From contig OX485803.1 of the NCBI GenBank assembly GCA_950295325.1, positions 30,442,001 to 30,506,000 of the forward strand: DNA of 64,000 nt, written 5' to 3'. The stretch comes from Polytrichum commune. Taxonomy: Eukaryota; Streptophyta; Polytrichopsida; Polytrichales; Polytrichaceae. Positions 2,486 to 64,000 of the stretch are shown here, one piece after another. The number at the start of each line of letters is the position of its first letter. Position 1 is the stretch's first letter. The position numbers were made by a program, and so were the translations under genes. A model generated the notes under the pieces. It saw nothing but the letters and a program-made list of their open reading frames with translations. It made no database searches and was not told the origin of the DNA.

Positions 2486-3885
2486 TTTCCTCCTCCTGCT
2501 CCTGCTGCTGCTAATATTAATAATTACCCCTCCTTGCAAGCAAAATCGTCCGAAACCATGACCTGCTGATGGCCTAAACCCTGAATCCCCATTTGGAGCA
2601 CTTCAACCTAGACAAGTTACAAAATAGCAGCCCGTAATGGCACTGAAAGTTATGATCAATGCTCCGTTGTAGAAATTTCCTTGCTGATTTTACCATCATC
2701 TCCCAGCTGCCGGTTGTGATGTCACAGCCCCTGTCCAGGGAAATCCTTACAAAGCCAGGTCACCCCCGGAATCGTCCTGAACTAGGTCGGTTGCGAACTA
2801 GCCAAAAATTCCTGCCCCTTGAAGTTGAGGTTTCCTAGATCCCTAACACCTTGGTTTGAAGACGTGGATCCTCCTGGATGAGGGAAATTCAACACAAGTA
2901 TCATTGTCAGTTTTGAATCGTGACAAGAAAATCTACATAAAGTTTTAGCACTTTCTGCTTGCAGGTTTCATTTCCAGGTACACCAAGACACTAATTTCTG
3001 GAACCTCTACCATTGATATGCAGTAGGAGGAAAAAAACCCTGAGATCCTCCTCTCGGTCACAATCGATCTTAGGAGAGCATGGAGAATGGCTTCAGAGAT
3101 GATCAACCCTTGCTTAGCTCCGAAATTGAGAAGAGGGTGCATTGAGGACTTCATTCCATGAGAGAAGAAGTTGAGTCCAGCACAGGTATTAGTTAAGAAG
3201 TATAGAATTACTGAGAACACCTCTCTTGTACACGGAAATGTGCAAGTTTCAGAAATTTATGGCAGAACATATAGACAAGCGGCCGATTGACCATTCTTAC
3301 ATGCGCTCCAGAGTCGACCTACAAAATTGTGGCTGCCGAGGACTAAACTCCTCAACAACGTACCATACACCAATTTTTTTTTCTTCCCTGGTAACCTATC
3401 TCCTACACAAGTATATTATGCAGACTATGCAACGCCTCAACACGCCCAAGATTCTGAAGCGAGACACAATAAACCTCTCTCAAAACCTGAATTTCTCGAA
3501 GCTGCCGGCGAGTGTGGAAGAAAGACAAACCATGGCTTCCACTCTCTCAAATTAACAGCTATGTCACAGCCAAACTTCCACCATATCCAGATCAGAAGCA
3601 GGCTAACTTACTCAAGAAAAACTGGTAAAATTGGTAATACAACCAAGGACAGCGGTTGGATTCAGCCACCTGGACAGTAGTACTGATCACCATCAATTTT
3701 CCGACAGTGACAGACTCTCTAGAATCTAGACTCACGCTCGTGCACCAACCAGACTTTACAACCCCGAGCAACTAAACCCCAACTAAGCTTAACTCAAATC
3801 TTGCACTAAATTCTCCATTTCTCTCCACCACCAGCTGCCTGTACATACTACACACACACATCCGCTGCACGCAGTCCATGCTCAA

Positions 3886-3888
<3 letters not shown>
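2486..3888. other. Upstream flank of the LRR gene, no gene recognised
   Basis: This is presumably 5' UTR and promoter of the LRR kinase gene. A purine-rich leader with GCAGCAGCAGGAGCAGGAGG (sense of the gene) lies just upstream of its ATG. Open frames of about 90-115 codons occur at 2945-3680 but have no recognisable domain or codon pattern. Confidence 0.4.

Positions 3889-3936
<48 letters not shown>
3889..3936. repeat. (TC)n microsatellite
   Basis: A pure TC dinucleotide run of 48 bp is read directly. Confidence 0.97.
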
Positions 3937-3939
<3 letters not shown>

Positions 3940-4327
3940 GAAAGTACTGACTAGTCCTTGGGTACGTGACAAGAACTACTGTAGTACTGTACCTGCAGCA
4001 CCTGAATTAAACCAGGCACAGAGGGAGACGCTGCAAACTTCAAACTTTTCACTACACAGCATGCATACAGAGCTGCTGCTGATTACAAGAGACATCAAGC
4101 CAACTTAGAAGACACTACTGTACTGTTAACGTGGGATGGGTGAATGGAAGGGGGACAACCGTGGCAGCCAAACCTACAGGGCGGGGCAACAGCCAGTGGT
4201 GCGAGCTTGGGAAGAGAAGCATCGTCATCCTCAACGAAGAGAGCAGAATCTGGCAACGTCATCTCATCTCGTTGTGAAGGGAAAGGGGAAAGCCTCGCTG
4301 CCTGCAAGAAAGAAGCTGAGAAAGAAA

Positions 4328-4346
4328 GGGGGGGGGGGGGGGGGGG
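4328..4346. repeat. Poly-G tract
   Basis: Nineteen consecutive G follow an AAAGAAA stretch. Similar C or G runs occur at 10412-10429, 12441-12457 and 22221-22236, so long homopolymer C/G tracts are a feature of this genome, although assembly or sequencing error in their exact length is possible. Confidence 0.95.
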
Positions 4347-4461
4347 AAGGGGGTCAATAACAGGGTAACCTACTTCCAAAGGATTCTTGGGAGGCCCCTG
4401 CTGACTCGTGTGTACGGAGTCAAACGTCTCTAGAAAAGTGGTACATGCCCCGTACATTCCC

Positions 4462-45054: not shown

Positions 45055-47938
45055 CTATTTAGTAAAAAGATCAAAGTGCAGCTCCATATTTGAATCAACA
45101 TCAGAATCGCAACCTTCATCATCAAAATCGTTTTCCGGAAGCCACTGGGATCCATCGATCCAGCTGATTTGTGTGTACAGATCAGCTTCTCCAGCTGTGA
45201 GAATCCTGGCATACTTAACCCTCCCGGTGGTGTTGGACCCCAAGCCACTGTTATTGAACTCCCCAAAGTAAACAGTCCTGCTTCCAGACCACACCACATG
45301 CAAAGAAATCATCACAAATTTGACTCACATCGAGTGTTCCTGTCCCTCAAATCCTCCAGCAACTTTGAGGGCTCATTGTAGTACATAAAATGGCAGATAG
45401 AACCTCACCATTTCCAGTTGGCTTCAGATCCATGTTGGAGATGACTATCATGACTATCTACACTTTATATGAATCTGTAGGGCTCTTGTTGTTCAAATTG
45501 AGATTCAATACATTACCGGCTGTGCAAAGGTAAGAAAGTGTGAATTTTGGAGTCTGACAAAGGTGAAGCTGTTATGAAATAAGAGAGTCCAGCTCTATGC
45601 GATTGGTAAACATCATGGCAGGGATAAGTAATCTTGGGGGCATGCAATTGTAGTAATATGAACCACATGCAGTAAAGGGGTATTATCAGGAATTATAAAG
45701 TTATGCGTATATTCATGAAATATCCCATAGGCTTCATGAATATTATTGGAATATATTCTAATATACTCTCAAAACAAATTTCTAGTACCCTATACTTATT
45801 GTTGATTGTTTTATGAATTTTATTCCTATGTTTTTTTTTTTGCACGTGGTTCTTAATATCTTAGAAAGTGTGACCTCCTTGGGTAAGTAATTCAGGTGAG
45901 TGGATACACACGAGTCAGCACTTGTGTTCATCCAGTCGTCCCATCCTCTGCTGGAGATGATATTCTCCATGTAAGTTGAAGAGAAGACAACACGTGCAGC
46001 AGGCCCCCAGGCCCTTCCCAATAAGTTTGTGCCGGTGCCAACAATGGAGCAACCGATGAAACCATATCCCGTATCCTCGTCTTGACTTTGACGGTAATGA
46101 GCTGTGATTGCTCCCCATCCCGCAGCAGTTGAATTTATGATGCAGCTCTACATCAATTTCAGTATCATTAATGAGTGACTTGAATTACGAAAAACCTCAA
46201 AATGTTCACATGAGATCCAGAAAAACTACTTCAAAAGTGGTCTGAGCATATTGGTTATGATCTCTTGGTTACCTGATAAAGAGATCTGCCATTTCCAAAA
46301 ATAAAGTCAATCTCACCCTCGATGTAGCATTCTTTGAAGAAGTGGCGACCTGTATGGTCATTCAAAGTATCTTGATTTCCATAAAATCCACACCCATAAA
46401 ATGCACCCCTGTCTCCAGCTGCCCTAAATGCTACTGCCTGTGCACCAACAATTTCTGGTCCAGGTCGTGGAGCCGAATTCTGGCGAATTGCAAATATTTA
46501 CCAAATTTAAGTCTTCATATGCATATATAAACATAGGCATACACTTCATGGCATTGTTAAACATAAGTCTCATGTCAAGATATTAGTAAGCGCACTTGAA
46601 TGCCAAGTATCATGAGGTGACACTAATGATGAAGTTGTTGATCATTATTGGAACCTAGGATATGCCTCAAAATAGGATAAGTGACACTAATTACCAAAAA
46701 TGGTGTGGTGTAGACTCTGAACATCAACTATTGTATGTGTTACACCCAGACACCAATGAAACGTTCAGTAAGCAACACTCCAAACCTACATGGCAAAAGT
46801 TTCTCAAGGAGCTGTCAACATTTATGTCCGAAAATTGAAATGCAAGGTGTCAAAGATATATCTACTCATTCGACCTGAACATAGAATTTTGGTGGACTTC
46901 CCAATTTCATGTATTGATTACCAGTCCTCTTGACATTTTACACCATCCTTGAGGATAATACTCCACCCGTTGATATCAACTCATGAGTTGCGCATGGTTG
47001 GATATTCACCTTGAAACTTATGTTGCGTCCAATGAAGTAATCCGCGTCTACAGCAACTGATGCAGTTGTATAAGTCGACCCAGTCACATTCGCGTTATCA
47101 CTCCAAGTAATTATAGTCTTGTCGAGGCCAGCCCCTTGAAATGTAATATATGGCTTGCTGCTGGGTATGTACACTTTTTCACTGAGTCCAACCAAGCCAA
47201 GGATCAGAATTCTCACCTAAGGAAGTCTGCTTGAAGTTCTCACTCGGCAACGGTGCAAGGGGTAGGTGAAATTAGATGTGTGCAAACTATTGTATACTTT
47301 TGCTCCTGGCACTTTTGCCGCATTCAAGTATGTCATTGCATTGCGTGTCGGAATGGATTTTGCATCTGAGTTATATATGTCCTACACTAAGAGTTTTGCA
47401 AACACTCTAGCACAACTTAGGCTAGCCAGTATTGCCCATTCTCTTATCCGCACATAGTACCAGCCGTGAGTAGATAGTCATGCCATAATTCCACACTTGA
47501 AGTTTGATATGAATTCAGCATCAAAAACAAACTCTTACCACAAACTTACAAGAATGTTCCTTCTCTGATTTGAATTAGTACTCGATGTGTATTGAAAACG
47601 CTCACCGCATCGACTGCTTCTTGTACTGTTCTATAGTTCCCAGCTCCCGACTTATCAACAACCAAGGAACGGATCCCCCTGACCGTCCTTCTTGTTTGCC
47701 TTTCACCATATCCTGCACCATGGAAGGTTTCAAATATATTCTCATACACCACATGAGCAGAATGCAACGAGGTTGTATGTCCAGCATCATCACCACCATC
47801 AGGGAATTGTGAGTCATCAGCTTCTTGGAAGCGAAAACAAAGTTCCTCGCTCATAAAATTTACCAGACCACACAGCCTCATGAGAACGTGCACGAACCCG
47901 ATACTTAGGATGAGCGTTTTGTAGCTCAAGAGGATCAT
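45055..47938 (-). CDS. Pectinesterase (pectin methylesterase), 5 exons
   Basis: Exons 47550-47938, 47010-47181, 46273-46479, 45912-46147 and 45055-45277 join in phase through GT-AG introns to give 408 residues. The enzyme removes methyl esters from cell-wall homogalacturonan. An N-terminal hydrophobic signal ([20 protein letters not shown]) is followed by [36 protein letters not shown], the QAVAFR block with Gln201, GNQDTL with catalytic Asp224, IDFIFG with catalytic Asp245 and LGRAWG with substrate-binding Arg301, then [20 protein letters not shown] and IDGSQWLP. All expected catalytic residues are present. There is no inhibitor (PMEI) pro-domain, so it is of the shorter, secreted class. The intron between exons 2 and 3 carries a MITE A fragment. 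The gene looks functional; start and splice sites are inferred from sequence. Confidence 0.93.
46568..46713 (-). mobile_element. MITE 'A' fragment in pectinesterase intron 2
   Basis: Reverse complement begins CTACACCACACCATTTTTGG, then TTAGTGTCACTTATCCTATT and GATCAACAACTTCATCATTA, matching the left end of MITE A (7854 onward). The right half is missing. Confidence 0.75.
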
Positions 47939-48910
47939 TGTGGTTGTCCTGAAGCTACATGAGATCTAATCGTCGGGGCTCCATGAACTTGACTATGCAT
48001 ATATATAAGTTTTCCCACGCAATTCTAAATAAAATCTTGTGATGATCTCAGGTAGAGTGGAGAATTGTCGGGCCTACGATCAAGACGACACAGCACTCCG
48101 AAACATCTGCAGCGGTGATTTGAGATGCTAACATCTTAGAAAATGTAGTATCAACTAATTTCCATTTAACCTCATCTTAGGGTTGATTCTTTTCTGCAGG
48201 GGCTCCATGGAAATTAGGGTAATCACTTCATTGAGCTACATAATTAAACCTTGCGGCGATGCACGTGCAACAACTGCAGCACGACGTATGGAAGCAAAGT
48301 TCCATACGACACTCCTATTCGAAGGTATATTTATTGTGTGAGTTTGCACCTGATAAGAAGTTAAGAGCACACGGCAACACGAGCGATGGGACTACCGAAC
48401 TCTCATGCTTCATGTGCTGTGATCTATGGCGAAAGAAACGGAACCGTTAACCCCTAAACGAATTTCGGGCGCAGATTGTAGGTAGCTTGGACGCTACACT
48501 GGATCCGTGCTGCTGTACAGTACAGGCCCGGTCCGTTTGCATTCGTGGATATGACTTAAGGTCCCGGTCATCCCTGCACCGCCCGCTGAACATACCGCCA
48601 TCGAAGAATTCAAGACCGGCCGTTTGAAAGTTTGGAACGGCAATTGCCCATCCGATCACCGTTCAACTGATTTCCAACATTGTGTAGTAGATATACAAGA
48701 TTATGGTCAATATTTGTTTCGAAACGTTGGAAATCTCCAGAGCGGGTGGACGTGCTGTTAAGAGCACAGGGATGTCAACTGGTTCCGTTGCATTATACGA
48801 AACGCAGTTATTCAGAAGTTTGCAAACTTATGTAACGGCCTCTGTACATCAATTTGAAGCCCCTTAAGGCACATCTGTGCAGCGTTGCTTGCAAAGTCTG
48901 ACTCTTGCCC
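47939..48910. other. Upstream flank of the pectinesterase gene
   Basis: About 1 kb without a recognisable gene. It is somewhat richer in GC at 48440-48660 and probably holds the pectinesterase promoter, but no specific box can be defended. Confidence 0.35.
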
Positions 48911-49808: not shown

Positions 49809-50707
49809 AGTACATGAAATGCGTACAATACCATAACAACCTTCTTTGCCATACCTCTACATCTAAGAGCAACTAGAACATCGTACCCAATATGTTTTAG
49901 ATATTGTACAAGAGGAGCCTTACTACGGGTTATAGCCCCAGGGGGGTCACAATATTTTAGAACACTACGTGAGAACATATATAGGGTATATTGTCAAGTT
50001 GTGAGTTACAACTTATAGAACATGTACTTGTAACAAAGCTCAAGTTATATATTGAACTCCATGGTATAAATAAATTGGGGTGTTTGTAAATTGATCATGT
50101 TAGAGAAGTTTTAAAACTAACATACCGTAGGGTTCAGTAGGGTGGGAAATTAAAATAATATATATTAGGGTTCTATTCTATGGATGAGCATCATTGGATG
50201 ACATCTCCTGCATGTCCCATGGTAGTTGGATATAATCTATGAGGTTAGATGCGGGAAGGGCTCACAATGGCTTTGTGCATTTTGTTTGGCTTTGAGAGCT
50301 CCCAGTTAGGATTTGTGAAAGCTCTTTGAAATTTATATGTATGTGCAAACTCCCACCATATTGATGTTGATGGTTGGTTATTGAAGGTTGGACAGTAGGC
50401 ACACGTGTATAGTTGAGCTCCTTAGATGCGCCCATCTCAAACCTTCATTTTTTCTACTTTTGGTTGTAACACTATATTCGTTAATTGGAGACTTTGGAAA
50501 GTCTCAAAATAAATTGGACCCGTAGTTTCGGATGCGAATATTGTGAACGTAGCGAACATGGGGAACATGGGGAACAATGGCAACATAATGTTTTAAAGAT
50601 CCATATGTGATGAATATATATGTTTCTAAATATAGTAATTATTCAGTTGATAATCAAAACTATGCCAACACAATATTCCAATGACACGAAATTGCAAATT
50701 AGCATCT

Positions 50708-50900
50708 GCAATATAATTATATAGTTTAGGGTTCACATCCGTAAAAACACAGACATAAAAAACATTTGGATTCCACATCCGTAAATCAATGCATCCATGC
50801 AATATAATTATATAGTTTAGGGTCCACATCCGTAATAACACAAACATAAAAAACATTTGGATTCCACATCCGTAAATCAATGCATCCATGCAATATAATT
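50708..50900. repeat. 91-bp tandem repeat (2.1 copies) carrying half-palindromes
   Basis: GCAATATAATTATATAGTTT starts at 50708 and 50799 and a partial third copy starts at 50890, so the period is 91 bp. Each unit has two CACATCCGTAA half-sites, which match one arm of the palindrome family at 52.6-55.1 and 62.1-62.7 kb. It lies just downstream of the DUF7869-like gene and may mark that side of the element. Confidence 0.9.
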
Positions 50901-51015
50901 GTAATCTATAAAATTGCTATAAAATGTGTCTAATATAGTATTCGACCCCAATGTCATATATTTTATGAAAAACCAATACACATTCAAATATCTTTGGTCC
51001 AAACCTACGTCAATA

Positions 51016-54000
51016 TCATTCACCATCTTCATCTTCTGCTTCATTTCCATTCTCGACATTGTTTTCTGCAGCAGCAATACGTGCCAAGTTGTCTTTGGCA
51101 AAATCTATATGTTTTTGGGGGATGGTCATTGTTTCAATTTTGGAACCTTTGCGTGGTTTCCAAGCACAAAGTATGGTATCCGTGTTTATCCATATTGGTT
51201 CGTATGCTGAGTCCATTGTCCATTTGAAACTTTTTTTCGTGTCCCACCCTAAATATGTGCGGAGCACATTTTGATCTTTGGTGCTTGGACGGCAATATTC
51301 CACCTCAATTTGACGAAAATTTGGGCTAGTTGGAACAAAATTTGGTGATGACAATGCTTTCACCAACCAAATCGGTTTAGGATGTTCCTCATCTCCAGGA
51401 CGTACGAGGACCATATAACCTTCGTAGCAATCAATAGCCACACGAAATGATGGAGCCGGGCGATTACGAGCAGGGCCAACATAATGGTCGTCCGCCGCGA
51501 ACTCTTCACGAACGTCCCCATTGTTGAAGAACATGGCCTCAGATTCCACGATTGTCACTCGGCTTAGTGGCCAAAAACCTTGTGTCAAACATGATGGTCT
51601 ATCGTCTTCGGGTGCTAGCAACGCTGAGCGGATGCGATCCCAATACGCAATCAATGGTTCGTGGGTATCCCGAACATGTCTTGTGATGTCTTCCTCGCAC
51701 AAATCTTTCCAGTACTCGATGAATCCAGATATACCTTTGATGATTTCTGGTCCATTCATCATGGGGTTGGGTTTGCAGGGCTTCGGCTCCCCATCAGGTA
51801 GCATACATTTGCCATCTTCGTTTTGGCGCCATACGAGTATCCCTTCCTCTGGGCCCCAATTCGGGGAGGTACACAAAACTTTGAATTGCATGGCCGGCAG
51901 ACCATCATCACGCATATAGAATCGGAATTGTTGAGCCTTGGTATGGCCCACTAAGCGGTCACCTCCCTTAAGAATGAATGGTTTGATAAATGATTTGAAA
52001 TCGGGCACTTCTTCAATCAAATGCGGGATGACTGGCACATTATCCAAATCCATGTACGATTTCATGAAAAGAGGAATTGTGGGAAAATCCTCCTCGTGCA
52101 ACTTCATACTCCAACGTCCGAATGAAGCGTCAATGTCATCGTGCGTGTGGCCAACCATCAAAAAAGACACAAACACTTCTTTGAAAATGCCCTTGGCTAC
52201 GAGCAATGACCAAAAACAAAATACGTATCGACATTTGTTGTCCTTGGCACAATTGTCAAGTTGCACGTGTAGAGTTGGAGGCAAAGGTTTAGCAAGAACG
52301 GGTTGTTCAGGCGGTTCTTGCAGTGAAGATAGGCAAACCTCCTTCCCCTCTAACACAGCCTCATAAATCGGTGTTGTTCCACATCCAACAAAAAGAGCAC
52401 GAGAGGATGATGTGGGCGGACTCTCAAGATCTCGTAGAAGTTTTGCAAAAGACCCTACGGTATGATTGGCGTCGCCAGGATAGAAATCCAAGCCATAATG
52501 TGCATATTTCACGTCCACATGACCATGTGCGATCATACCTGCATTTAGCCACACAAATCGTATATATGAATGAAATTCAAAAATTTCCCCAAGCAAGCAA
52601 AAAAATGTACACTTACGGACGTACATCCGTAAATCTTAACAATGAGTATGTGGGCGCGCAAAAAATAAATGTGAAAACCAACAAACCTGTGACAGATATT
52701 GGAAGCTTGAAATATCCATCTGTAGCCTTTATTTTCCGCGCATAACAAGGGCACGCCGTCTTTGCATGGTCCATTTTGTCATGAATGATTGTCAAAACCT
52801 CATTCGGCCTCATTATCGATAATGCGCGATTCTTGTAGTAGTCTTGACGGTGTGCCTCCTGGTTGTTGACATGCTCAATGTATTTCAGTTGATGTCGGTT
52901 GTGGGACTCAGTCCCAATGGGATGTGCATCTCAAAGGCCTTTATATTTCTCACAAGCAGAACACCTGGCAAACTTATCCCCAGGTCTCTTCGTAATGTAT
53001 TCTGCGAATTGTTGATTCTTGATCACACTCAATTTTGACAACGAAATCGGCCCACATCCAGTCTTTTCGCCAACTTCATTAACATCCATAAGTATGTTCT
53101 TCCATTTTGTCCCTGTAGGCAAAACCATCTGAACAACCTTTTCCCCCGACGGCAGAGTTCGCGTCTTGTGTGGCATCGCATCTGCCAATGGCATAATGAT
53201 GGTTGATAGTGTTGCAGCCGCTTGGAGTGTTGCCTCCCTAGGCTTCTTTGTGCAAGAGTTGCGATGGAACCGAGAACGGCGTCCTTGCATCGAGTAGTTC
53301 CGGAACCTATAAAAATCTGCCTTTGAAACTGCATGTATAATGTACCATGCCTTGCAACATATCTCGACATTTTCCAAGGTCACAACCTTACGACCTTCGA
53401 CATCAAGATGCATGTTGCGATGGACTTCAAGTTTCTTTGCAGATCGCATACGAAAGTCCGCGAGCCACATCTCTTATCTCAAAGATTTGATCTTGTCACG
53501 GGGAAATAGTTGGCAACATCTCTTTGCACAACAATCATTTGTTGCTACGGACCTAATAGATGTATCTCCCAATGTTTGATCTCGACGACGTTGCGTGGGT
53601 TCACGAGGCAAACGAACGGAATCATATTTACGCCGACCCATTCTAGGGCGCATTGTGGAGAACAATGCTGATTGCATTTGATCAAAACGGCGGGAATGAT
53701 TCCACAAGCTGACACCATCATGAAGAACACTGCGCAACGGCCATCGACGAAGAGAGAATCTCCAACCAGAAGGCACTTCCAACGGATGTAAGGAATTCAA
53801 AATGCATACCCCCACATCTTCTTCCCCAAGGGGATTTGCATCAATACAATCCGTAGGATTTGAGTTCCGACAAACACCATCGGCCACGGAGACGCCACAT
53901 CCATTGAGGATGACGACATTAAGATCAATCCACTGCTCCCGGGAATAACCCTCACATGGTGGGAGGAATTCATCCTCTACATTGGCGACACCAATTGTAG

Positions 54001-54091
54001 TTTCTTGTTCCACGACAACTTCAAACTCGCTAGCATAGCTTGACGCTTCCGACGAAAAATCAACCCCACTATCACCGACGTTGGAATCCAT
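51016..54091 (-). pseudogene. DUF7869-like predicted transposase, two in-frame stops
   Basis: Exon 1 (52687-54091) and exon 2 (51016-52538) join in phase across a 148-bp GT-AG intron to 975 codons (start at 54091; an in-frame upstream ATG is at 54151). The frame is broken by TAA at codon 206 (53474-53476) and TGA at codon 387 (52931-52933), yet conserved sequence continues in the same frame past both. Blocks include MWLADFRMRSAKKLEVHRN, a C-x2-C pair (FARCSAC, codons 377-380), DKMDHAKT (codons 438-445), GMIAHGHVDVKYAHYGL, HVQLDN (Asp563) and VGHTHDDIDASFG (codons 602-605), ending in an acidic tail. The spaced Asp residues suggest an RNase H-like nuclease fold, and this protein type is typical of uncharacterised mobile genes in seed-free plants. 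Palindromic repeats lie upstream and in the intron. TGA fits CpG decay of an Arg CGA. Recoding is possible but less likely than a dead copy. Confidence 0.72.
52539..52686 (-). other. Intron of the DUF7869-like gene containing a palindrome copy
   Basis: Donor CACAG-GTTTGT and acceptor AATGCAG-GTATG join ISVT to GMIAHGH in phase. The intron holds a decayed palindrome copy at 52611-52634 (CTTACGGACGTACATCCGTA inner part). Confidence 0.75.
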
Positions 54092-54234
54092 GGCCACTAC
54101 AAGAGAGCCAAATGAAGAGTATGTCAAAATATCCCATTCAATAAATGTCATGGATAGCCCTAACGCTTATTATTGTCAATGAAACACAATGTGAACACTA
54201 GTGGATTTCATGGCTTGAAAACAAAGCTAGCATT

Positions 54235-55080
54235 GGTATACGAACGTGCGTCCGTATACCTCCATGTAATAACATCAGCAGCGCAAGCACACGCGCATAC
54301 GGATACATTGATGTGTTCATAGGAGCGGAAAGGAGGAGGCAAAAAAAACATCACTGGTTTATGGACGCGCATCCGTAAATCGGCTCGTACACATAGTTCA
54401 GTTAAACCCTCAACCAAAACAAAGGTATACGGACGCGCGTCCGTAAACATCCGTATGACAAACATCAATGTAGTCCTAAACAGAGGTTCAAGGAAGCAAG
54501 AGGTCCTCCAAACATGGCCATATATACACAGGCCTGACGACTCATGAAATTTGAAGAGGTTTGAACACGGCCATACGCGCTTCCTAAAATGTTTAATCAC
54601 TGTCAAATTATTATAGTATGACACATAGGGTGATGTAGGCTAAGGGATGCGAGCTCCCAACCCTTCATGACCGTACAGTCTCACTGCAGTCTCAGTCTAC
54701 ATGGCACATTATGGTAACAAAGCTTTCCAGGTTTACGGACGCGCGTCCGTAAACCTCTGTGGACCTCATTCCTAGCATAAAGACAGTGATCGATGGAATA
54801 CACCTCTGTGGACATCATTACTAGCCTAAATACAATGTCCAACGCGCCAAGGGGTTTACGGTTTACGGACGCGCGTCCGTAAACTTCCATGGTAATATAT
54901 TGTCGTTGTGGTGCTCTACACGACAGGTGGTGTAGGTGACCTACAGAACTATAGCACCAAAGGTATGCAGGTTTACGGACGCGCGTCCGTAAACCTCAAC
55001 GTACATGAATATTGGCTCAAACAAATAAAGGTTCAATGAACCAATATGTTTAAGGTTTGCGGACGCGCGTCCGTAAATCT
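54235..55080. repeat. Palindrome cluster 1, upstream of the DUF7869-like gene (7 copies)
   Basis: Copies of the palindrome with inner 20 bp TTACGGACGCGCGTCCGTAA or close variants lie at 54235-54260, 54357-54380, 54425-54448, 54729-54756, 54861-54884, 54969-54996 and 55055-55078. Those at 54729 and 54969 are perfect over 28 bp (AG...CT flanks). Sequence between them is unrelated and spacing is irregular (68-306 bp). All lie within 1 kb upstream of the start codon, so they fall in the promoter, the 5' UTR or a 5' intron. The cores keep their CpGs in an otherwise CpG-poor neighbourhood. Confidence 0.95.
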
Positions 55081-55519
55081 CCGTGATTTGCGGCGTGAAA
55101 ATAGGATCATTGCACCAGAAAGGATAACTGTCCGAAATTTTAAAAAAATAAGCACACTACAAGGAGAGTGCAACCCAAATACAAATTGTGTACCCTAATG
55201 GGCTCAGGACTTGGGGTTTAGGGTATAATAGGTCCATTGCAATAGGATCTTTACCTGCACAAAATCTGTAGCAGGAGCACACTACAAGAGCGCAACCCAC
55301 AGCTGAGATGCAAAAAGAGTCCCGACGGTGGGGGTGTCCCCTTAAGTACTGATCGCTTTACCTTGGATCCGTTTTCCAACATAGGATACCAGCCACCAAC
55401 TATGTCCTATAAATACAAACCTAGCATTACTACATTTCGTGTGCCAGCCTTACAATGGAATGTGTATTCATGTGGACTACATGCATAGACCATGAGTCCA
55501 CATAATGACAAAGAAAAAG

Positions 55520-55528
55520 GCATCTATG
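55520..55528. repeat. Target-site duplication GCATCTATG, left copy
   Basis: Identical to 58175-58183. The 9-bp length is typical of Mutator-like elements. Confidence 0.92.
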
Positions 55529-56173
55529 GGATCTCTGTATTTAAGTGCTACGAGCGTTTGTAGGACGCCTCCCGCGGGCAGCGTTCATGCTCCGGCAGCC
55601 CGTTCCTGTCCTCCCGTCCCGACCCGTCCTCCCGTCCTGACCCGTCTTACCTGCCCGAATTGGCCTTCCTGCCCGTGTCCTCCGTCCTGCCCGACGCGTC
55701 CTCCATCTTGCCCGATGCGGCTTTCCGCCTGTCCAGCTGTCCACGCGTCTGTCCAGCTGTCCACCCGTCTGTCCATCCGTCATATCCGTCTCCACCACTA
55801 CCCCACACCGAACCCGAGCTCCGTCATTCTTCCTTGCTCACGCCACTAGATAGCTCTGGAGCGAGTGAGGAAGTTGGGGAAAGGTTGTTGCATTGCTAGT
55901 TTAGGGTTTGGAAGAGTTGTAACTTTGATTGATGTTGTCTTAGTCGCCCGCCATGGAGGTGGACATTGTGGATCTGGGAGGGAAATGTGTCTCTTTCGAA
56001 GAAGGGTTTGATTTTGTAATAGAGGAGGCCACGGAAGATGTACAGGACGGACAAGGTTTAGTTTCATATCTAAAAATTCTTCTGTCATTCTTCTGTCATT
56101 CTTCTGTCATTTTTTCTTGCTCACGCCACTGGACAGCTTCGGAGCGAGTGAGGAAGCTGGGGAAAGGCTGTTC

Positions 56174-56435
56174 AAATCTGGAAATTCTTGCCAGGACGGA
56201 CGATTATGAGGACAGGCGATTGTACTTGCTAGTTTCCGATCTGGAAGTTATGAGGACATGTAATGGGTTTGAGGCCATGCAGGCTGAGGCCTCGTCCTGG
56301 ATGAGAGCTTGTTTCTGGAATGCCTGCTTGGATATGTTGGCTATGGACAAAGAGGATGATCTTTGTGTCATGTGGTTGGACGCGTCAAAGGACACAAATT
56401 TTGGTGGTGGAAGGCGAGTGCAATACAATCGTTGA
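56174..56435 (+). CDS. Unrecognised 3' open frame inside the MULE
   Basis: The frame opened by MEVD in the left arm (55953) runs on through the interior to a stop at 56433-56435. The interior part reads LEILARTDDYEDRRLYLLVS, then FEAMQAEASSWMRACFWNAC, LDMLAMDKEDDLCVMWLDAS and GGGRRVQYNR. I do not recognise it. It could be captured host sequence, the end of a second MULE gene or chance. The frame lies opposite to the transposase remnant. Its regular composition (few stops, balanced residues) argues mildly for descent from coding sequence. Confidence 0.3.
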
Positions 56436-56599
56436 TAATGTTGTGGAGTTTAGTGCTATTTTTTAGAATAATGGTGTAGGATGTTACAATAAGACAAGGT
56501 AGAACCAATGTAATGTTGAATCATAATAGGACACATTTATGATAGGTGAGAACCATTACATGTCCACTTCGGACACATGAGTATTGATACATTGGCTCC

Positions 56600-57467
56600 T
56601 ACCCATTTTCAATAAAGTATCATTGTTTGTTGAATTTTGAATATAAGTGAAACTTCGGCAATTGGGAATTTTCGGAAAACAAACAATTTAGTAAAATATG
56701 ACAGGATATGTATAACATTGGTGTCCTGGAAAGACTTTATGCCTTCCTCATTGAATTCAGTAACATTGTAATATATCCTATCAATGTCATATATCAATCT
56801 ATGCAACATCCATTGTTTTCAGTGTTGTCCTAACATAATCTAAACTCCCATGACAGACTTGTCCAACCTTGTTGAAATGGTTAATTTTATGGTACTGAAT
56901 TTCACATAAAGTGTTGTCCATATACAGTTGCTTCGCCACAAAATTGCATTGGCATCCTTGCTTAGAGGTTAGACTAGCTTGCAATCTACTTGCCCTCCTC
57001 TGCTTTGTCTGTCCTATTGGGAGTGGTTGCCATGTGAGATTTTTAGGACAGCTTGTATCAGAGTCAGAGGCTGTAGAAACAACTGGACAACTAAAGGTGG
57101 AACAAGAGGTGTCTTTGTACTATTTTGTTTTTTCACTGTCCTAGCATCTAGGGTTGATCCTACCCCGTCCTTGGTTGATTTTCTCCTCCCAAGAAATGTT
57201 TGTCCTGTCAAAGGGCCCAGGGGGTAGGATCTGCAACCTCGCCCGCATATTTTCAAGAGTTACATCCCGCACCCTAAACCTTTCTTATGCACCAGCTTTC
57301 AAACACGTATTGGTGTCCTTGTGGACGATTGTATCTGCAGGAATTTCCAGATCTGAAACTAAACCATATCCGTCCTGTAGATCTTCCGTGGCCTCCTCTA
57401 TAACAAAATCAAATCCTTCTTCGAAAGAGACACATTTCCCTCCCAAATCCACAATGTCCACCTCCAT
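56600..57467 (-). pseudogene. MULE transposase N-terminal remnant
   Basis: From ATG 57467 the frame reads MEVDIVDLGGKCVSFEEGFD, a stop, ERFRVRDVTLENMRARLQIL, two more stops near GRGRINPRC and SEKTK, then RASRLQASLTSKQGCQCNFV and CEIQYHKINHFNKVGQVCHG, all in one frame down to 56799. After a frameshift, LIYDIDRIYYNVTEFNEEGI follows to about 56600. A basic stretch, then CxC...HxxxH and CHG, is the zinc-binding FAR1/GCM1-type DNA-binding module of plant MULE transposases. The catalytic DDE domain is missing. Three stops and one frameshift rule out function. A second copy of the MEVD start lies at 57750, in the right arm. Confidence 0.65.
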
Positions 57468-58174
57468 GGCGATCGACTAGGACAACGTCGATCAAAGTTA
57501 CAACTCTTCCAAATCCTAAACTAGCAATGCAACAGCCTTTCCCCAGCTTCCTCACTCGCTCCGAAGCTGTCCAATGGCGTGAGCAAGAAAAAATGACAGA
57601 AGAATGACAGAAGAATGACAGAAGAATTTCTAGATATGAAACTAAACCTTGTCCGTCCTGTACATCTTCCGTGGCCTCCTCTATTACAAAATCAAACCCT
57701 TCTTCAAAATAGACACATTTCCCTCCCAGATCCACAATGTCCACCTCCATGGCGGGCGACTAAGACAACATCAATCAAAGTTACAACTCTTCCAAACCCT
57801 AAACTAGCAATGCAACAACCTTTCCCCAACTTCCTCACTCGCTCCGGAGCTATCTAATGGCGTGAGCAAGGAAGAATGACGAAGCTCGGGTTCGGTGTGG
57901 GGTAGTGGTGGAGACGGATATGACGGATGGACAGACGGGTGGACAACTGGACATACGCGTGGACAGCTAGACAGGCGGAAAGCCGCGTCGGGCAGGATGG
58001 AGGACGCGTCGGGCAGGACGGAGGACACGGGCAGGAAGGCCAATTCGGGCAGGTAAGACGGGTCAGGACGGGAGGACGGGTCGGGACGGGAGGACAGGAA
58101 TGGGCTGCCCGAGCATGAACGCTGCCCGCGGGAGGCGTCCTACAAACGCTTGTAGCACTAAAATACAGTGATCC

Positions 58175-58183
58175 GCATCTATG
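58175..58183. repeat. Target-site duplication GCATCTATG, right copy
   Basis: Pairs with 55520-55528. Confidence 0.92.
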
Positions 58184-60960
58184 TATTTGTGGTATACAAC
58201 AAAGTAAATTGGCTAATATTATATGAGCAATAAACATTGTTGAGGGGTGGTTTATAATATTGGAGTACCTAATATGAAGAGTACATTTTAAAAAACGTAG
58301 ACAACAAAATTAAATTAGCAACAACAATAGTACATGGAGTATAAAAATACATGTAATCAAAATTAAATTAGCAACTACTTTATTGTTTTGCATACAATGT
58401 AATGGTATTGACCATAATATCATGCTATCTCCTCTCATCTTGCATTTAATATTATAATTACATTGGCCACCACCTAACCATCCAACATTTTTAATTTACC
58501 CACCTATACACACCTATACATAATTGTATTCATATTTGATACAGAAACTTTGATTACCGTAAGGCCATGATAGTAGCACATCTATTGTCCTAGGTAACAT
58601 GGGTTGCATTAAATTCAATATTATCAATTTTCTCTCTAAACCTTAGGGGCCCCTTCCGTACATCAACATTTACTTCAAAAAAACTAATTATACTAGCCTT
58701 CTTCATGTACTATACGTGAGGAAAAACATTTTTTAGTACCTCATGTACATTACCTACATTAATTAATACTCAAACAATACCAATTGTTGCTCCAAGTAAC
58801 ATTCTTACCCTCAACCCTAAACCCTATAACCACCCAAACCTAAACAAACATGTGGACATAGAGATGCAAGCATGGTTAACTGAACAACTCCTGATACATG
58901 TCAAGGCTTAAGTGGAAAGTAATTCAAAACAAGCAAGCAAACAATTATACCAATTGTTGTTCTACGTAATACTATTAACCCATAAAATATAATGGACAGA
59001 AAGGGAGGGTAGGGTATCTAAATAGTAATAAGGCAACCAATATTAAGTCGGTGACACAAGGGGGATACTCTTAACCCTAAACCCTAAACCCTAAACCGTA
59101 TAAACGACTCCCGACTCATGTCAAGGCTTAAAATTCTCTAAAACAAAACCATCAAGATTTCAAAAGTCAAGCAAATTTATGTTTACAAATTATTCTTGAA
59201 GACATGGTAAGTGGTGAAAAAGTAGGTGACATAGAACAAAGATTTATCAAATTGTGAATGGCAATCCGATATGTGGTCTTAATTTGGCTAAGGAAAAAGG
59301 TACATGGGTTGCGTAACCTTACCTTTCATTTTTTTAATCTTTGTTTGCCTGGGTAAAATCCACCCCTTAGAGGCAAGTACAAGATTTAGCCGAGACTTGT
59401 TATTCTTTGATGGGATACAATATGAAAACAATTAAGCCTTCAAAACATTTAAGATCATCAAAGTTATGTTCTAAGTCATATTTATCCATTTGCTTTAAAC
59501 CTTTACTTTTGAAGATAGGTTTTGAACATCATATATTGGTATTCTATAATCGAATACTTAACACAACCATACATGTCGTGGAAACAAAACTCCAATATAA
59601 ACAACAATTTGCTACTACTTATAGGCGATAATACAAGCTCATGCCTAGGTTTGGAAGGATTGCATGAATCCTGAAGGTTGTTTAATGGACAAGAGGGATG
59701 TAAATTCAACACCTACCCATTCCTTTTGTTCTAATACAAGCTTAGACCTATGTGCAGAGGGATTGAATTAACCCCTAACGTTGTTTAAGATATTATAAGC
59801 ATTTGATCTTAACCCATATTATCTCGATGTTTGGTTTTGTTAATTGTGTTTCAAACATGCTTAATTTAAATATCATTAATAATGATATTCACATCAAAGC
59901 ATCCCAAGTGTCCAACTTCAATAAAGTCCCCAAGTTGCTATTGATAGTATAATTTAGGTTGAAAATCCCCTTTCACAAATTATTGCGATAATTGAGGGAT
60001 TCATAAGGGTGTAGGGGTTTAGGGTTAATTGAATTTTTGGCCAATGGGTATATTATTGTCCCAATTGCATTTGAATCCCACCTTTGTGGTAAAAAATTAC
60101 AAAATGCTTTATCTTTTTTATTATTGATGTTATTTAATTGATGCCAATGACATAATATACAATGAATAGTTAATATAGCATTCCATAATTCTAAATATTA
60201 AGCAATACTACTTATAATATTTAGTGTACTAGTAATTTAAAGCCCGCTTACCTTCATATTACAACAAGTCCACAAAGAAAATCTTACACTTGAGTTACTC
60301 AACCTCAACCCATACTTCAAAATTATGTTTACTATTGGGCCTAGATGGTTATTATAATTTGAGCATTGAGATTCCTTTATTTTTGGTCAGCAATTGTTTT
60401 TGGTATTCGTTTTTGGACTCACCACATACAATTCATCCTCTATAAATGTTATGCTCTGGAATATAATTTTCCTTACATTTATTGTGAGTTAACATTGTAA
60501 CAACTATAAAGGGAGCTTTTTGAATGCTTAACAAATTTGATTCATTACAATTATGGAGGGAGAGTTTTGCAAAATTATAAATTATAAAATATGTGTATCA
60601 ATCACAATATAACCCATATTAATAATTTGATCACAAAAGTCAAATTTGGTGGCTTTTGCCACTTTGAAAGGTTGTGACTCAATGTAATGGATGTCATCTC
60701 ACAATATTGGATGTAGTTCGTAGGTTAACATTTATAAGTGGCAAATTAACAAAGAGGGGAATAAATTATTCTTAACATGTAACAAAGTTTACATTCTAGT
60801 TAGCAATATGAGAGGAGTACGAATTTGTTAACAAATACAATTATGAGTTAACATGTGGAAGTGTAACATTTATCGAGGGTGGACTCTAGCAATCACAAAA
60901 TAGACCAATAGACATATGCCACGTAAGGGTTACATGTGGCCTTTGGGCGCGGGTTGATGG
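58184..60960. other. AT-rich stretch without recognised genes
   Basis: Chance open frames only. It contains a short interstitial telomere-type repeat at 59073-59097 and several imperfect local duplications (for example around 58780-59110 and 59640-59760). It separates the MULE from the ParB-like gene, and if the two palindrome clusters belong to one element it is interior to that element. Confidence 0.4.
59073..59097. repeat. Interstitial telomere-like CCCTAAA repeats
   Basis: Three CCCTAAA units in tandem, the complement of the plant telomere repeat TTTAGGG. A related CAACCCTAAACCCTATAACC lies near 58808. Confidence 0.85.
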
Positions 60961-61824
60961 GACGTCTAGGTAGGGAGTGGATGTGACGTTTAGGGTTTCG
61001 ATACACTCCCTTGCTCTTCGCTCCTTTCGCTCCTTTTTGCTCATTTTGCTCCTTTCGCTTACTCCCTTTCGCTCCTTTCCTCCTCGCCCACCATCGTTCC
61101 TTTCCTCCTCGCCCTTGCTCCTCGCCTTTGCTGCTCCTCCTTCTCCTCCTTCTCCATTGCTACTATTACTGGTCCTCCTTCTTGTTGTTTCTCCTCTTTC
61201 TCCTCCTCCTTGCTCTTCCTTTGTTGTTTCTCCTCCTCCTTGCTCCTAGTTCCATAAGAGCGCCAGGAGCTCCAGGCAGGTGTTTTTTTCTTTCCCTCTT
61301 TGCTAGATGTGCTGTTCCAGGTGCTAATTAGGTGATTTGAGTTTATGTATTGATGCACAAGAGGAGGATTGTGAGTATTGTGTGAGCATGCAATGTTTTG
61401 TTGCACTCACAATTGCAAATAACATCAGAAATTGAGTAGTTTTTTGCTTGCAGTCTCATTAGGACATTAATGGAGTAGTTTCAGTTGTTGCAAGGGTTTT
61501 AGGGTTGGAGTATTTCAGTTGTTTCAGAGTGCTCCTCCTTTCAGTTTGTAATTGTCTTCACTTCACTTGAATTCACTTTTTCCAAGTTCTAAGAAATTAT
61601 ATGTTTTGCTTTGTTCACTTCTATCTGATGTCAATGTTCAATCCAGTGCAATCTTTGTAGTAGGGTTTTTTTGGTGGGTTTGATGCATTTTAGGAGCAAC
61701 ACACAGTTTAGTTGAATCTTGAATGTGCACATTGCATTACCAGAGGTTTCTAACTTCAATTTTATTGTTAATTTGCAGTCTGTCGTAGCTGCAGCTGTGG
61801 TTGAGCAACAAACATTGTACAAAG
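60961..61824 (+). promoter_or_regulatory. Probable promoter and 5' UTR exon(s) of the ParB-like gene
   Basis: A pyrimidine-rich tract (61010-61250, CTCCTT repeats) typical of plant leaders is followed by ordinary sequence ending in a strong donor, ACAAAG-GTAAGTG, at 61825. An internal acceptor TTTGCAG at 61775 is possible. The 90-110-codon open frames in the tract are low-complexity and judged non-coding. The exon is inferred, not proven. Confidence 0.4.
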
Positions 61825-62073
61825 GTAAGTGTTTCTAGTACATTGCAAATTGAAATGGAACATTCTTCTTAGTTTGGAGTGTAGAATCTACTATTGCAAT
61901 GCAACACCTGATATATTCTAATTTGGAGTGCAAATCCATGTTGCATTCCAAGTAAAGATGAACATTGCACATGAATGGAATGCAACAAAAAACCTGTTCC
62001 GAAAATTTCGGAGCAATATCCAGAAACACAGTAATTGTGCAAAGTAATTAAATTCAGAATAATTAAAAAATGG

Positions 62074-62699
62074 CCTGAAGTTTACGGACGCGCGTCCGTA
62101 AACTTCAGGGAACCCTGGGAATATGCATCGCACTATGTGTGAACAGTTTACGGACGCACGTCCGTAAACTGTAGATATATTTAAAAAGAACTATTTAAAA
62201 ACATGAATGATAAGTTTACGGACGTGCGTCCGTAAACTTGAAATATCTAAGTACACTAAATGTGGTACATGATACATGTGCAGAGTTTACGGACGCGCGT
62301 CCGTAAACTAGGCAGCAAAAACTATGAAAATCTCAGAGTATAATACATGTCATGGGTTTTCAAAATAAGTTCTACAAAATGTACAAGTTCTACACAACAA
62401 AAATGAACTTATTTTCCAAGAATTTACGGACGCACGTCCGTAAATTAGGGCTACATAATAATAAAAAACATATTATATTCATGGAATATAGAAATAGAAA
62501 CTTTTGGATGATATATGTGCAGAGTTTACGGACGCGCGTCCGTAAACTCTGCACATATATCATGTATGTGATTTCTTTTTATAAGATATCTCAAGTTTAC
62601 GGACGTGCGTCCGTAAACTTGACATGTACTATAACATAATACATAACCACATTATATAGGAAAGAGTACGCAAAGGTTTACGACCGCGCGTTCGTAAGA
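62074..62699. repeat. Palindrome cluster 2: regularly interspersed palindromic array (8 copies)
   Basis: 24-bp cores lie at 62080-62103, 62146-62169, 62214-62237, 62285-62308, 62422-62445, 62524-62547, 62595-62618 and 62676-62699 (last decayed). Centre-to-centre distances are 66, 68, 71, 137, 102, 71 and 81 bp, so most spacers are 42-57 bp and largely unrelated to each other. Cores share TTACGGACGCGCGTCCGTAA, with GCAC or GTGC at the centre in some. Perfect self-complementarity extends beyond the core in several copies: 36 bp at 62074-62109 and 56 bp at 62508-62563. Flanking extensions differ between copies. Confidence 0.97.
62508..62563. repeat. 56-bp perfect palindrome
   Basis: The core copy at 62524-62547 is flanked by ATGATATATGTGCAGA on the left and its exact complement TCTGCACATATATCAT on the right. 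The left flank resembles that of the copy at 62285 (ATGATACATGTGCAGA), whose right flank is not complementary. So here the left flank seems to have been copied, inverted, to the right side. Confidence 0.97.
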
Positions 62700-62752
62700 T
62701 AGGCTCTGCATCCCCAGACCTTAATACTGACTTGTATATTTTACATTTGCAG

Positions 62753-64000
62753 ATGGAATCTACAAAAAGACCCGCTATTGATTTATTCGCAGAGCTTGTC
62801 CATCCTCCGCTTCCAAAAGCCATCAAAGACGTAAGCCACAACGACCATTACAAGCCACGCGAAGACATTGTAGATAACTGGACAGTTATTGTAGAAAAAG
62901 ACGAAAATGATATATTTGTCCTTAGATTTGCCTATCAAATAAAAGCAGATATACATGAATCCGAGAAGTGGATGAAGGTAAAAAACTGGACAGTAGAGTG
63001 TGCGGTAGCCCAAGGTGATTATGTTGTCATTGACCTTGAAAAGAAAAATGATAGGATCACATTCATTTTGCACGAGTTGTACTATCCGTTCAACAAAAAT
63101 GAATGTGAAAATGCCAGCCCAGATGCGTCTTGCTTCAATTTACAGAATGAATTCCAAGACTATGCATGCAATGCACCCTGGACGGGTAAACGGCTTGGAC
63201 GTCTCTTGAACAATATGACAAGAGTAAATGGGGCATTACTAGAAGCCAAAAAAGGAAAGGCGAAAAAACCAGTTCCTGAACGACCTAAACGTGTTCCTAA
63301 ACACGTGCCAGAAGCCTCGAGACCCTCACAGAGTGGGGCATCAAGAGGGAGCAAGCAGACTAGTAAACGTTCCCACTCACAGATGGAGTCGTCAGGGCTA
63401 ACAGAGGGTCCAGATGTGAGCTCTACTCTTACTGTCGCACCACTCCTGAAGAAAGGACAACGTCCTGACGCCGAACTTTCCACAAAGATTTTCCAAGAGT
63501 TCGACGAGAAGACAAAGGGCTGCTGGCCACTTGGAAGATATTTCACGTTTGATGTGGATGTCTACAAATGCCACAAGGGCACGGAGAGTATGAATACTCG
63601 TGCCAAAGAAGAGACCGGGGTGTGGTGGCAAATGAATAACATTATGAACAACCCCAAATTTGATAGGCAAACCATATGTGTGACACCAAAGGATCCTGTG
63701 GTTGAAGTCACAGCGCAAAACTGGCCAATTCTCAAAGATGGAGAGTTCTACATAGTCGACGGCCAACATAGTGTGATGGCTGCAAAAGCTCTCCTAGAGG
63801 ACGATGAGTGGAAGAGCCCTTTGAAAGAGACAATCCGATACTGGAAGGCATTCGTCGTCCATTCCAAAGACTCGAACCAGCTCATCGCAATATCTGCCTT
63901 CATGAACCAAGGGAATAAAGTGAGGCAGTTCGAGGCTTCATGGGCTGCCAACATCGTGGCTGGAAGGACCTTGTGGGTAGAGCATGATTGTCCCCCAAAA
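62753..64000 (+). CDS. ParB/DGQHR-like protein, partial (runs off right edge)
   Basis: The ATG follows a TTTGCAG acceptor and the frame stays open for 416 codons to the window end. Residues 1-160 form an unrecognised acidic-basic domain. About 164-217 is a basic, Pro/Ser-rich linker (KKGKAKKPVPERPKR, SKQTSKRSHS). From about 235 a second domain contains FYIVDGQHSVMAAKALL (Asp336-Gly337-Gln338-His339) and, 40-50 residues on, FMNQGNKVRQFEASWAANIV (Asn385). A hydrophobic strand, DGQH, an Ala-rich helix and a later xN-x-K/V-x-F helix match the layout of DGQHR/DndB and ParB-Srx proteins, which bind or cut DNA or act as nucleotide-driven clamps. Ser340 replaces the usual Arg. The assignment is by motif only. 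It is likely the second gene of the palindrome-bearing element, divergent from the DUF7869-like gene. No stop or frameshift is seen. Confidence 0.65.
   Translation, partial: MESTKRPAIDLFAELVHPPLPKAIKDVSHNDHYKPREDIVDNWTVIVEKDENDIFVLRFAYQIKADIHESEKWMKVKNWTVECAVAQGDYVVIDLEKKNDRITFILHELYYPFNKNECENASPDASCFNLQNEFQDYACNAPWTGKRLGRLLNNMTRVNGALLEAKKGKAKKPVPERPKRVPKHVPEASRPSQSGASRGSKQTSKRSHSQMESSGLTEGPDVSSTLTVAPLLKKGQRPDAELSTKIFQEFDEKTKGCWPLGRYFTFDVDVYKCHKGTESMNTRAKEETGVWWQMNNIMNNPKFDRQTICVTPKDPVVEVTAQNWPILKDGEFYIVDGQHSVMAAKALLEDDEWKSPLKETIRYWKAFVVHSKDSNQLIAISAFMNQGNKVRQFEASWAANIVAGRTLWVEHDCPPK

Follow-up and report, generated by a model that had tools for sequence, protein, structure and literature searches.

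A DUF7869 transposon of Polytrichum commune with family-specific palindromes, putative target sites of an element-encoded protein

We analysed a window of 64,000 nt from Polytrichum commune (contig OX485803.1, here C1, positions 30442001-30506000; genome 407.8 Mb) whose right-hand part holds a DUF7869 gene, a tentatively ParB-like gene that we call P, and clusters of short palindromes. These are parts of one DNA transposon. The window copy, W, spans 19,066 bp from 50468 to window-coordinate 69533, its right end lying beyond the window; the element measures about 17 kb, or 19.1 kb in W with a nested Mutator-like element (MULE). A first-pass annotation had proposed one large mobile element with both genes and the palindromes, and this proposal holds; the outcome that it had named as refuting did not arise. 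Of nine copies fetched, eight contain both genes (family 1: W, A, C, D, E and F; family 2: G and H; the families are described below), and their linkage is strong; the ninth, copy B, has no transposase within the stretch fetched. Copies A-E are five further loci taken from palindrome clusters of one contig, F was picked for exact ends facing each other, and H by the family-2 palindrome.

The left terminal inverted repeat, AACACTATATTCGTTAATTGGAGACTTT (50468..50495, plus strand), agrees with the right end of W at 27 of 28 positions and recurs at both ends, with small changes, across the element copies compared. It is preceded by TTGT at 50464..50467, the left copy of a target duplication whose right copy lies outside the window at window-coordinates 69534-69537. 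Exact 4-bp target duplications flank all five copies read at both ends, including F and H (TTGT in W; ATGG, CACT, TTAT and ATAA). Inverted ends of 28 bp and target duplications of fixed 4-bp length are hallmarks of a cut-and-paste DNA transposon. Extending the sequence rightward and aligning several copies, as the first-pass annotation had advised, yielded shared boundaries, conserved genes and the target duplication. That annotation had found neither terminal repeats nor a target duplication and had set the left border at 50708; both features exist, the left border is corrected to 50468, and the right border lies at 69533.

Copies A and C are colinear across 17.4 kb at 97.6% identity and stop at the same points, and the middle of W is partly homologous in A, B, C, D and E. 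This homology of the middle in several copies, together with the recurrence of whole units, rules out a boundary between the genes that would divide the stretch into two elements. Genome-wide, the left-end 28-mer has 135 exact matches (reversed control, 0). Using 100 of these 135 left ends as a proxy for the transposase side, with a search range of 9-20 kb, we found that at least 40 of 58 close P copies on C1-C5 have an exact left end on the transposase side at a distance of 10.8-18.3 kb; these comprise at least 26 of 39 copies at 92-100% identity and at least 14 of 19 at 80-84%. The wrong strand gave 0, and random placement of all 75 typed copies gave a mean of 0.18 and a maximum of 2. Among the left ends listed, none of the 17 P copies at 75-76% identity had an exact one; the ends of this group therefore differ or have mutated.

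Comparison with copy A divides the DUF7869 transposase gene (51016..54091, minus strand) into two coding exons, 54091-52687 and 52538-51016; in A itself they give 974 codons in the exon pieces used. The minus-strand open reading frame 51016-52635 matches DUF7869 in Pfam at E=3.5e-39, bearing out the DUF7869-like gene first called here, and this match is accompanied by putative catalytic residues, picked by eye, of an RNase H-like DDE enzyme. Exon 1 has two in-frame stops in W and is open in A and C; the copy E transposase has frameshifts. The frame has no relatives in viral contigs, and DUF7869 is mentioned in no paper within the open-access literature searched; it is tied here to a transposon with defined ends.

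P runs divergently on the plus strand, as the DGQHS frame had been described. Its first coding exon (62753..64000), which carries the DGQHS motif, is open for 416 codons to the window end, and the gene continues beyond the window to about 67155. We number the P coding exons 3, 4 and 5; in copy A they comprise 430, 440 and 476 codons. There is one in-frame stop in exon 5 of W, and exon 3 has one stop in C and seven in D. The stretch upstream (58184..61825, plus strand) contains 5′ untranslated exons of P, whose splice sites were inferred by eye, along with the non-coding middle of the element. When exon 4 was used as a query, 78 of 96 scored hits lacked stops with the family-1 sequence (the best 96 of 1,176 first-look candidates) and 71 of 95 with the family-2 sequence (the best 95 of 1,234); because scoring was confined to the best hits, these figures over-represent intact frames, and some candidates may be common to both sets. 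In some diverged copies, exons are broken by inserts coding CRAPLHEECPxHHGHKGDPGVTPGTC at their start (L029 ~2063-3030 and ~3408-4370; L009 ~2730-3470).

Purifying selection between diverged copies acts on the genes of the element. Between W and A, the ratio of non-synonymous to synonymous substitution (Ka/Ks) is 0.083 for P exon 3 (Ks 0.86), 0.108 for exon 4 (Ks 0.82) and 0.36 for exon 5, with 0.19 and 0.13 for the transposase exons and 0.117 for a phosphatase gene. This NIF/FCP1-type phosphatase gene (L011:1315-2094), found on the P strand in copy A (PF03031, E=4.4e-13), is carried by the transposon and is likewise under purifying selection between diverged copies. Ks between W and A is uneven: P exons 3-4 reach 0.8-0.9, roughly four times the value of about 0.2 for the transposase and the phosphatase, which suggests module exchange between lineages.

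Allowing up to 3 mismatches, the window contains 15 sites of the family-1 palindrome, TTTACGGACGNNCGTCCGTAAA, against 0.00 expected from 100 shuffles. All 15, spanning 52612 to 62617, fall within the element, in keeping with the confinement noticed at first pass. One site lies in the transposase intron (52612..52633, 2 mismatches), seven 22-bp sites with at most 3 mismatches form a cluster upstream of the transposase (54237..55077), and seven with no mismatch to the 22-bp pattern form another in the inferred last 5′ intron of P (62081..62617). Near the left end, two 91-bp tandem copies (50707..50900) contain exact half-sites TTTACGGATG at 50736, 50776 and 50867, as had been reported. Across copies, palindromes occupy the region upstream of the transposase, its intron, the inferred 5′ intron of P and both P coding introns. 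Overlap with coding exons is limited to 1 of 23 sites in A and 1 of 24 in F (up to 5 mismatches) and to 0 of 37 in H (up to 2 mismatches; exons from tblastn).

Within these non-coding parts the palindrome outlasts its surroundings in some comparisons. Between A and W, P intron 3 is 95% identical over the palindrome and 48% over the remainder (the W intron slices being off by a few bases), and the transposase intron is 91% and 64% identical, respectively. Other cases are less clear: in P intron 4, A and F agree at 94% in the palindrome and 99% in the rest, and A and C are nearly equal. W retains two of three palindrome sites in intron 4 of P. The distance from one site to the next varies by copy (in A, 95 and 135 bp; in H, 56 and 64 bp; in the right cluster of W, 66-137 bp); therefore the arrays turn over while the palindrome stays. 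The seven CpG-rich sites in the 5′ intron of W match the pattern fully despite CpG-poor surroundings. General CpG richness of the element was ruled out, the non-coding parts giving ratios of 0.21-0.54 with palindromes masked. The intronic position of many palindromes would suit RNA hairpins acting in introns or leaders for splicing, small RNAs or export. We regard this as highly improbable, given that the arm letters are largely fixed within a family, beyond what mere pairing would require, and that the position of one cluster, upstream of the transposase coding region, is one at which transcription is putative.

Three palindrome types occur in this genome, and each adjoins a P gene. Exact sites number 713 for family 1 (24-mer), 10,011 for family 2 and 2,909 for family 3, with 0 for each reversed control. 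The family-2 palindrome, TTGGGTCGNNCGACCCAA, is placed as in family 1. Element G, which lies beside A, has this palindrome as its own and no family-1 site; against family 1 its transposase is 68-76% identical (one C-terminal piece 47%) and its P exons 3-4 31-38%. H is a whole family-2 element of 16,952 bp with the family-1 gene order, and its ends match each other at 28 of 28 positions and those of family 1 at 26 of 28. Overall, families 1 and 2 share most of the transposase at 66-76% and the ends at 26/28, with P exons 3-4 at 31-38%, the phosphatase at 42% and a different palindrome. No family-1 palindrome (up to 4 mismatches) was found in G or H, and no family-2 palindrome (up to 2 mismatches) in segments W, B, C, D, E or F; the three family-2 sites in segment A all belong to adjoining G. 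The family-3 palindrome, TTTACGAACGNNCGTTCGTAAA, was first met in C, where a weak variant of it precedes a diverged transposase (77%) on the upstream side. A 5-kb locus selected by TTTACGAACGNNCGTTCGTAAA alone contains a P gene (exon 3 at 42%, exon 4 pieces at 44-58%), broken by inserts, with palindromes before exon 3 and in intron 3. In the subfamily with P at 75%, one locus (C1:37232322) has a family-1 palindrome just upstream of exon 4 (site 37232232). Family-specific motif clusters in the non-coding parts of an element are present, as for VANC, and a palindrome code that changes with the family was not found in the open-access literature searched, where no search was aimed at that combination.

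The existence of families with the same genes in the same order and different palindromes suggests a self-recognition code, and the palindromes would be binding sites of an element-encoded protein, most likely P. One alternative is that it is the transposase that binds them, as it does the subterminal repeats of CACTA or Ac elements. The window palindromes lie within the element only, one cluster adjoins the transposase gene, W, A, C and F have half-sites at a distance of 264-508 bp from the left end, and in H a single site with 2 mismatches is found roughly 0.5 kb away from the right end. However, A, C, F and W also have sites (up to 2 mismatches) at distances above 2 kb from both ends, and families 1 and 2 differ in their palindrome despite conserved ends and a conserved transposase, so that transposase binding appears unlikely. 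P rather than the transposase would be the reader, since it is P that diverges along with the palindrome, the ends and the transposase being retained. If the palindromes were instead host transcription-factor sites recruited as promoters, this would account for clusters 5′ of both coding regions. A host factor is not expected to switch by family, whereas families 1 and 2 use mutually exclusive palindromes in one genome, and we consider this origin very unlikely.

We favour a reading, held as probable, in which the palindromes are putative target sites of P in a VANC-like anti-silencing system whose families change both together. By way of the palindromes, P would recognise non-coding regions in the copies of its own family and would keep those copies expressed or mobilisable, as VANC does for VANDAL elements; family divergence would involve joint change of palindrome and P. 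Binding of the palindromes by P is itself inferred, as is its anti-silencing or self-activation effect. If P does read the palindromes, three natural protein-DNA code pairs coexist, in many copies, within a single genome, a setting in which to study self versus non-self recognition by selfish elements and the rise of new specificity, and P, a protein with no Pfam or NCBIfam match, would acquire a function.

Several observations weigh against this reading, some bearing on the pairing of P with the palindromes and others on the ParB-like label of P. The palindromes of families 1 and 3 are one symmetric base apart and not fully exclusive: with up to 1 mismatch allowed, segments A, C and F contain 1, 2 and 1 family-3-like sites, and of the pair in C one falls outside the element. 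The palindrome types observed number only three, so the co-divergence of P and palindrome rests on few points, and the phosphatase, which has also diverged (42%), could be the partner of the palindromes instead. With palindromes masked, the 5′ intron of P in W is CpG-poor (ratio 0.21), which speaks against a general lack of methylation there. Ka/Ks between the near-identical A and C is higher, at 0.17-0.72 (transposase exon 1 0.72, P exon 3 0.55), although ratios between near-identical copies are less telling. The assignment of P as ParB-like is itself weak. Searches of P against Pfam, NCBIfam and PADLOC gave neither a ParB nor a DGQHR match, plasmids gave no hit, and phage and plasmid searches with the family-2 protein found no ParB. 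The sequence P0001 has no relatives in viral contigs, and its predicted fold is uninformative (mean predicted local distance difference test score, pLDDT, 34); searches of phages and plasmids were nil or sub-threshold.

What survives of the earlier ParB/DGQHR call is a conserved DGQH box and a weak profile match. DGQHSV is invariant in all five aligned P rows, the most distant at 31% identity, with DGQHSL in family 3; the whole P frame matches the 'ParB-like partition protein' profile phrog_1033 at E=0.043, and its C-terminal piece does so at E=0.012. Sub-threshold phage matches (E 2-3) fall on Staphylococcus phage genes in 4 of 4 cases, two of these records being named ParB-like. DUF6551, reported in the available part of a ParB-CTPase survey as fused to a ParB fold (PMC12704722), gives E=0.2 for one of five P members. 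As for the suggested pairing with nucleases, among the frames given to Pfam there was no nuclease match above the cut-off, one frame reaching E=0.19 for Viral_alk_exo. The N-terminal part of P (L010:6599-7918, residues 75-118) has a YEATS match at E=0.015, below the cut-off.

Two further activities of P can be weighed. The first is ParB-parS-like self-marking, which we hold as a tentative and less probable possibility: P would load at the palindromes and spread or clamp, protecting the element from silencing or marking it for mobilisation, and new families would arise by joint change of P and palindrome. Such a scheme, if it operates at all, implies several distinct codes and at least 13,600 sites in one genome. 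The second is that P modifies bases at the palindromes and in this way marks the element that encodes it, exons 4-5 having the motif order of a beta-class N4/N6 DNA methyltransferase. Enzymes of this class usually have DPPY and FxGxG motifs. Read by eye, VFGG[TS]K..YAA and [DY]FR.[IF]PG occur in both families. However, DPPY and FxGxG are unseen in P, making catalysis doubtful, and P has no methyltransferase match in Pfam, PDB or phages; with no profile match and neither motif, methyltransferase homology of exon 4 is unsupported. Base modification is thus improbable, despite the precedent of Ectocarpus Sola1-1_Ec32, in which the available account places a ParB-like plus DNA methyltransferase gene opposite the transposase (PMC12477816).

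Other features of the locus are of separate origin. The MULE (55529..58174) is a later insertion and not part of the element: it has 644-bp inverted repeats (97% identical) and its own exact 9-bp target duplication, GCATCTATG, and copy D lacks it at the same point, in agreement with the first-pass description of a MULE inserted between the two genes. The single frame scanned in it gave no transposase match. Pieces of a pectinesterase gene lie at 45782-47965 on the minus strand, and the transposon is located upstream of that gene. Together with telomere-like repeats, these pieces point to a plant genome. A further palindrome, TGTCTCGGNNCCGAGACA, is present at 7 sites in 1.6 kb, close variants included, in the sequence flanking copy C (L017:7401-8986; C1:27969401-27970986), perhaps a different element with its own palindromes.

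Among known superfamilies, the 4-bp target duplication fits Sola, of which the transposon is a candidate member, although this length is also found in other superfamilies. KDZ was considered for its accessory genes and set aside on its target duplications, which are longer than 4 bp. The likeness to Sola consists of the 4-bp duplication, short inverted ends and accessory genes. In the available parts of the sources, 4-bp duplications are reported for Sola2 (PMC3627910) and a Physcomitrella Sola1 is listed in a table (PMC9033089).

Bacterial ParB-parS systems combine a ParB protein with short palindromic sites. The P element resembles them in having a protein with a ParB-like motif and short palindromic sites; it differs in that no ParA match was found among the element pieces given to Pfam, that the homology of P is weak, and that nucleotide use and spreading by P are hypothetical. 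VANDAL elements, which are MULEs, offer a comparison in the layout of their motifs. Sola1-1_Ec32 is likewise a giant DNA transposon with a ParB-like gene. Its host is a brown alga, its methyltransferase part is unconfirmed in P, and palindromic sites and family-specific motifs go unmentioned in the available part of its account, which states that ParB-like accessory genes occur in giant transposons of Ectocarpus and also of green and red algae, and whose authors propose self-binding and modification (PMC12477816). For VANDAL21 of Arabidopsis, the available text describes VANC target motifs as dense clusters in introns and upstream of the transposase gene, accumulating by tandem repeat formation and differing between VANC21 and VANC6; the motifs are in one orientation and are not described there as palindromes (PMC5735166). 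The element of P. commune shares with VANDALs its element-specific clusters of short motifs, intronic and upstream of the transposase gene, here in the form of palindromes.

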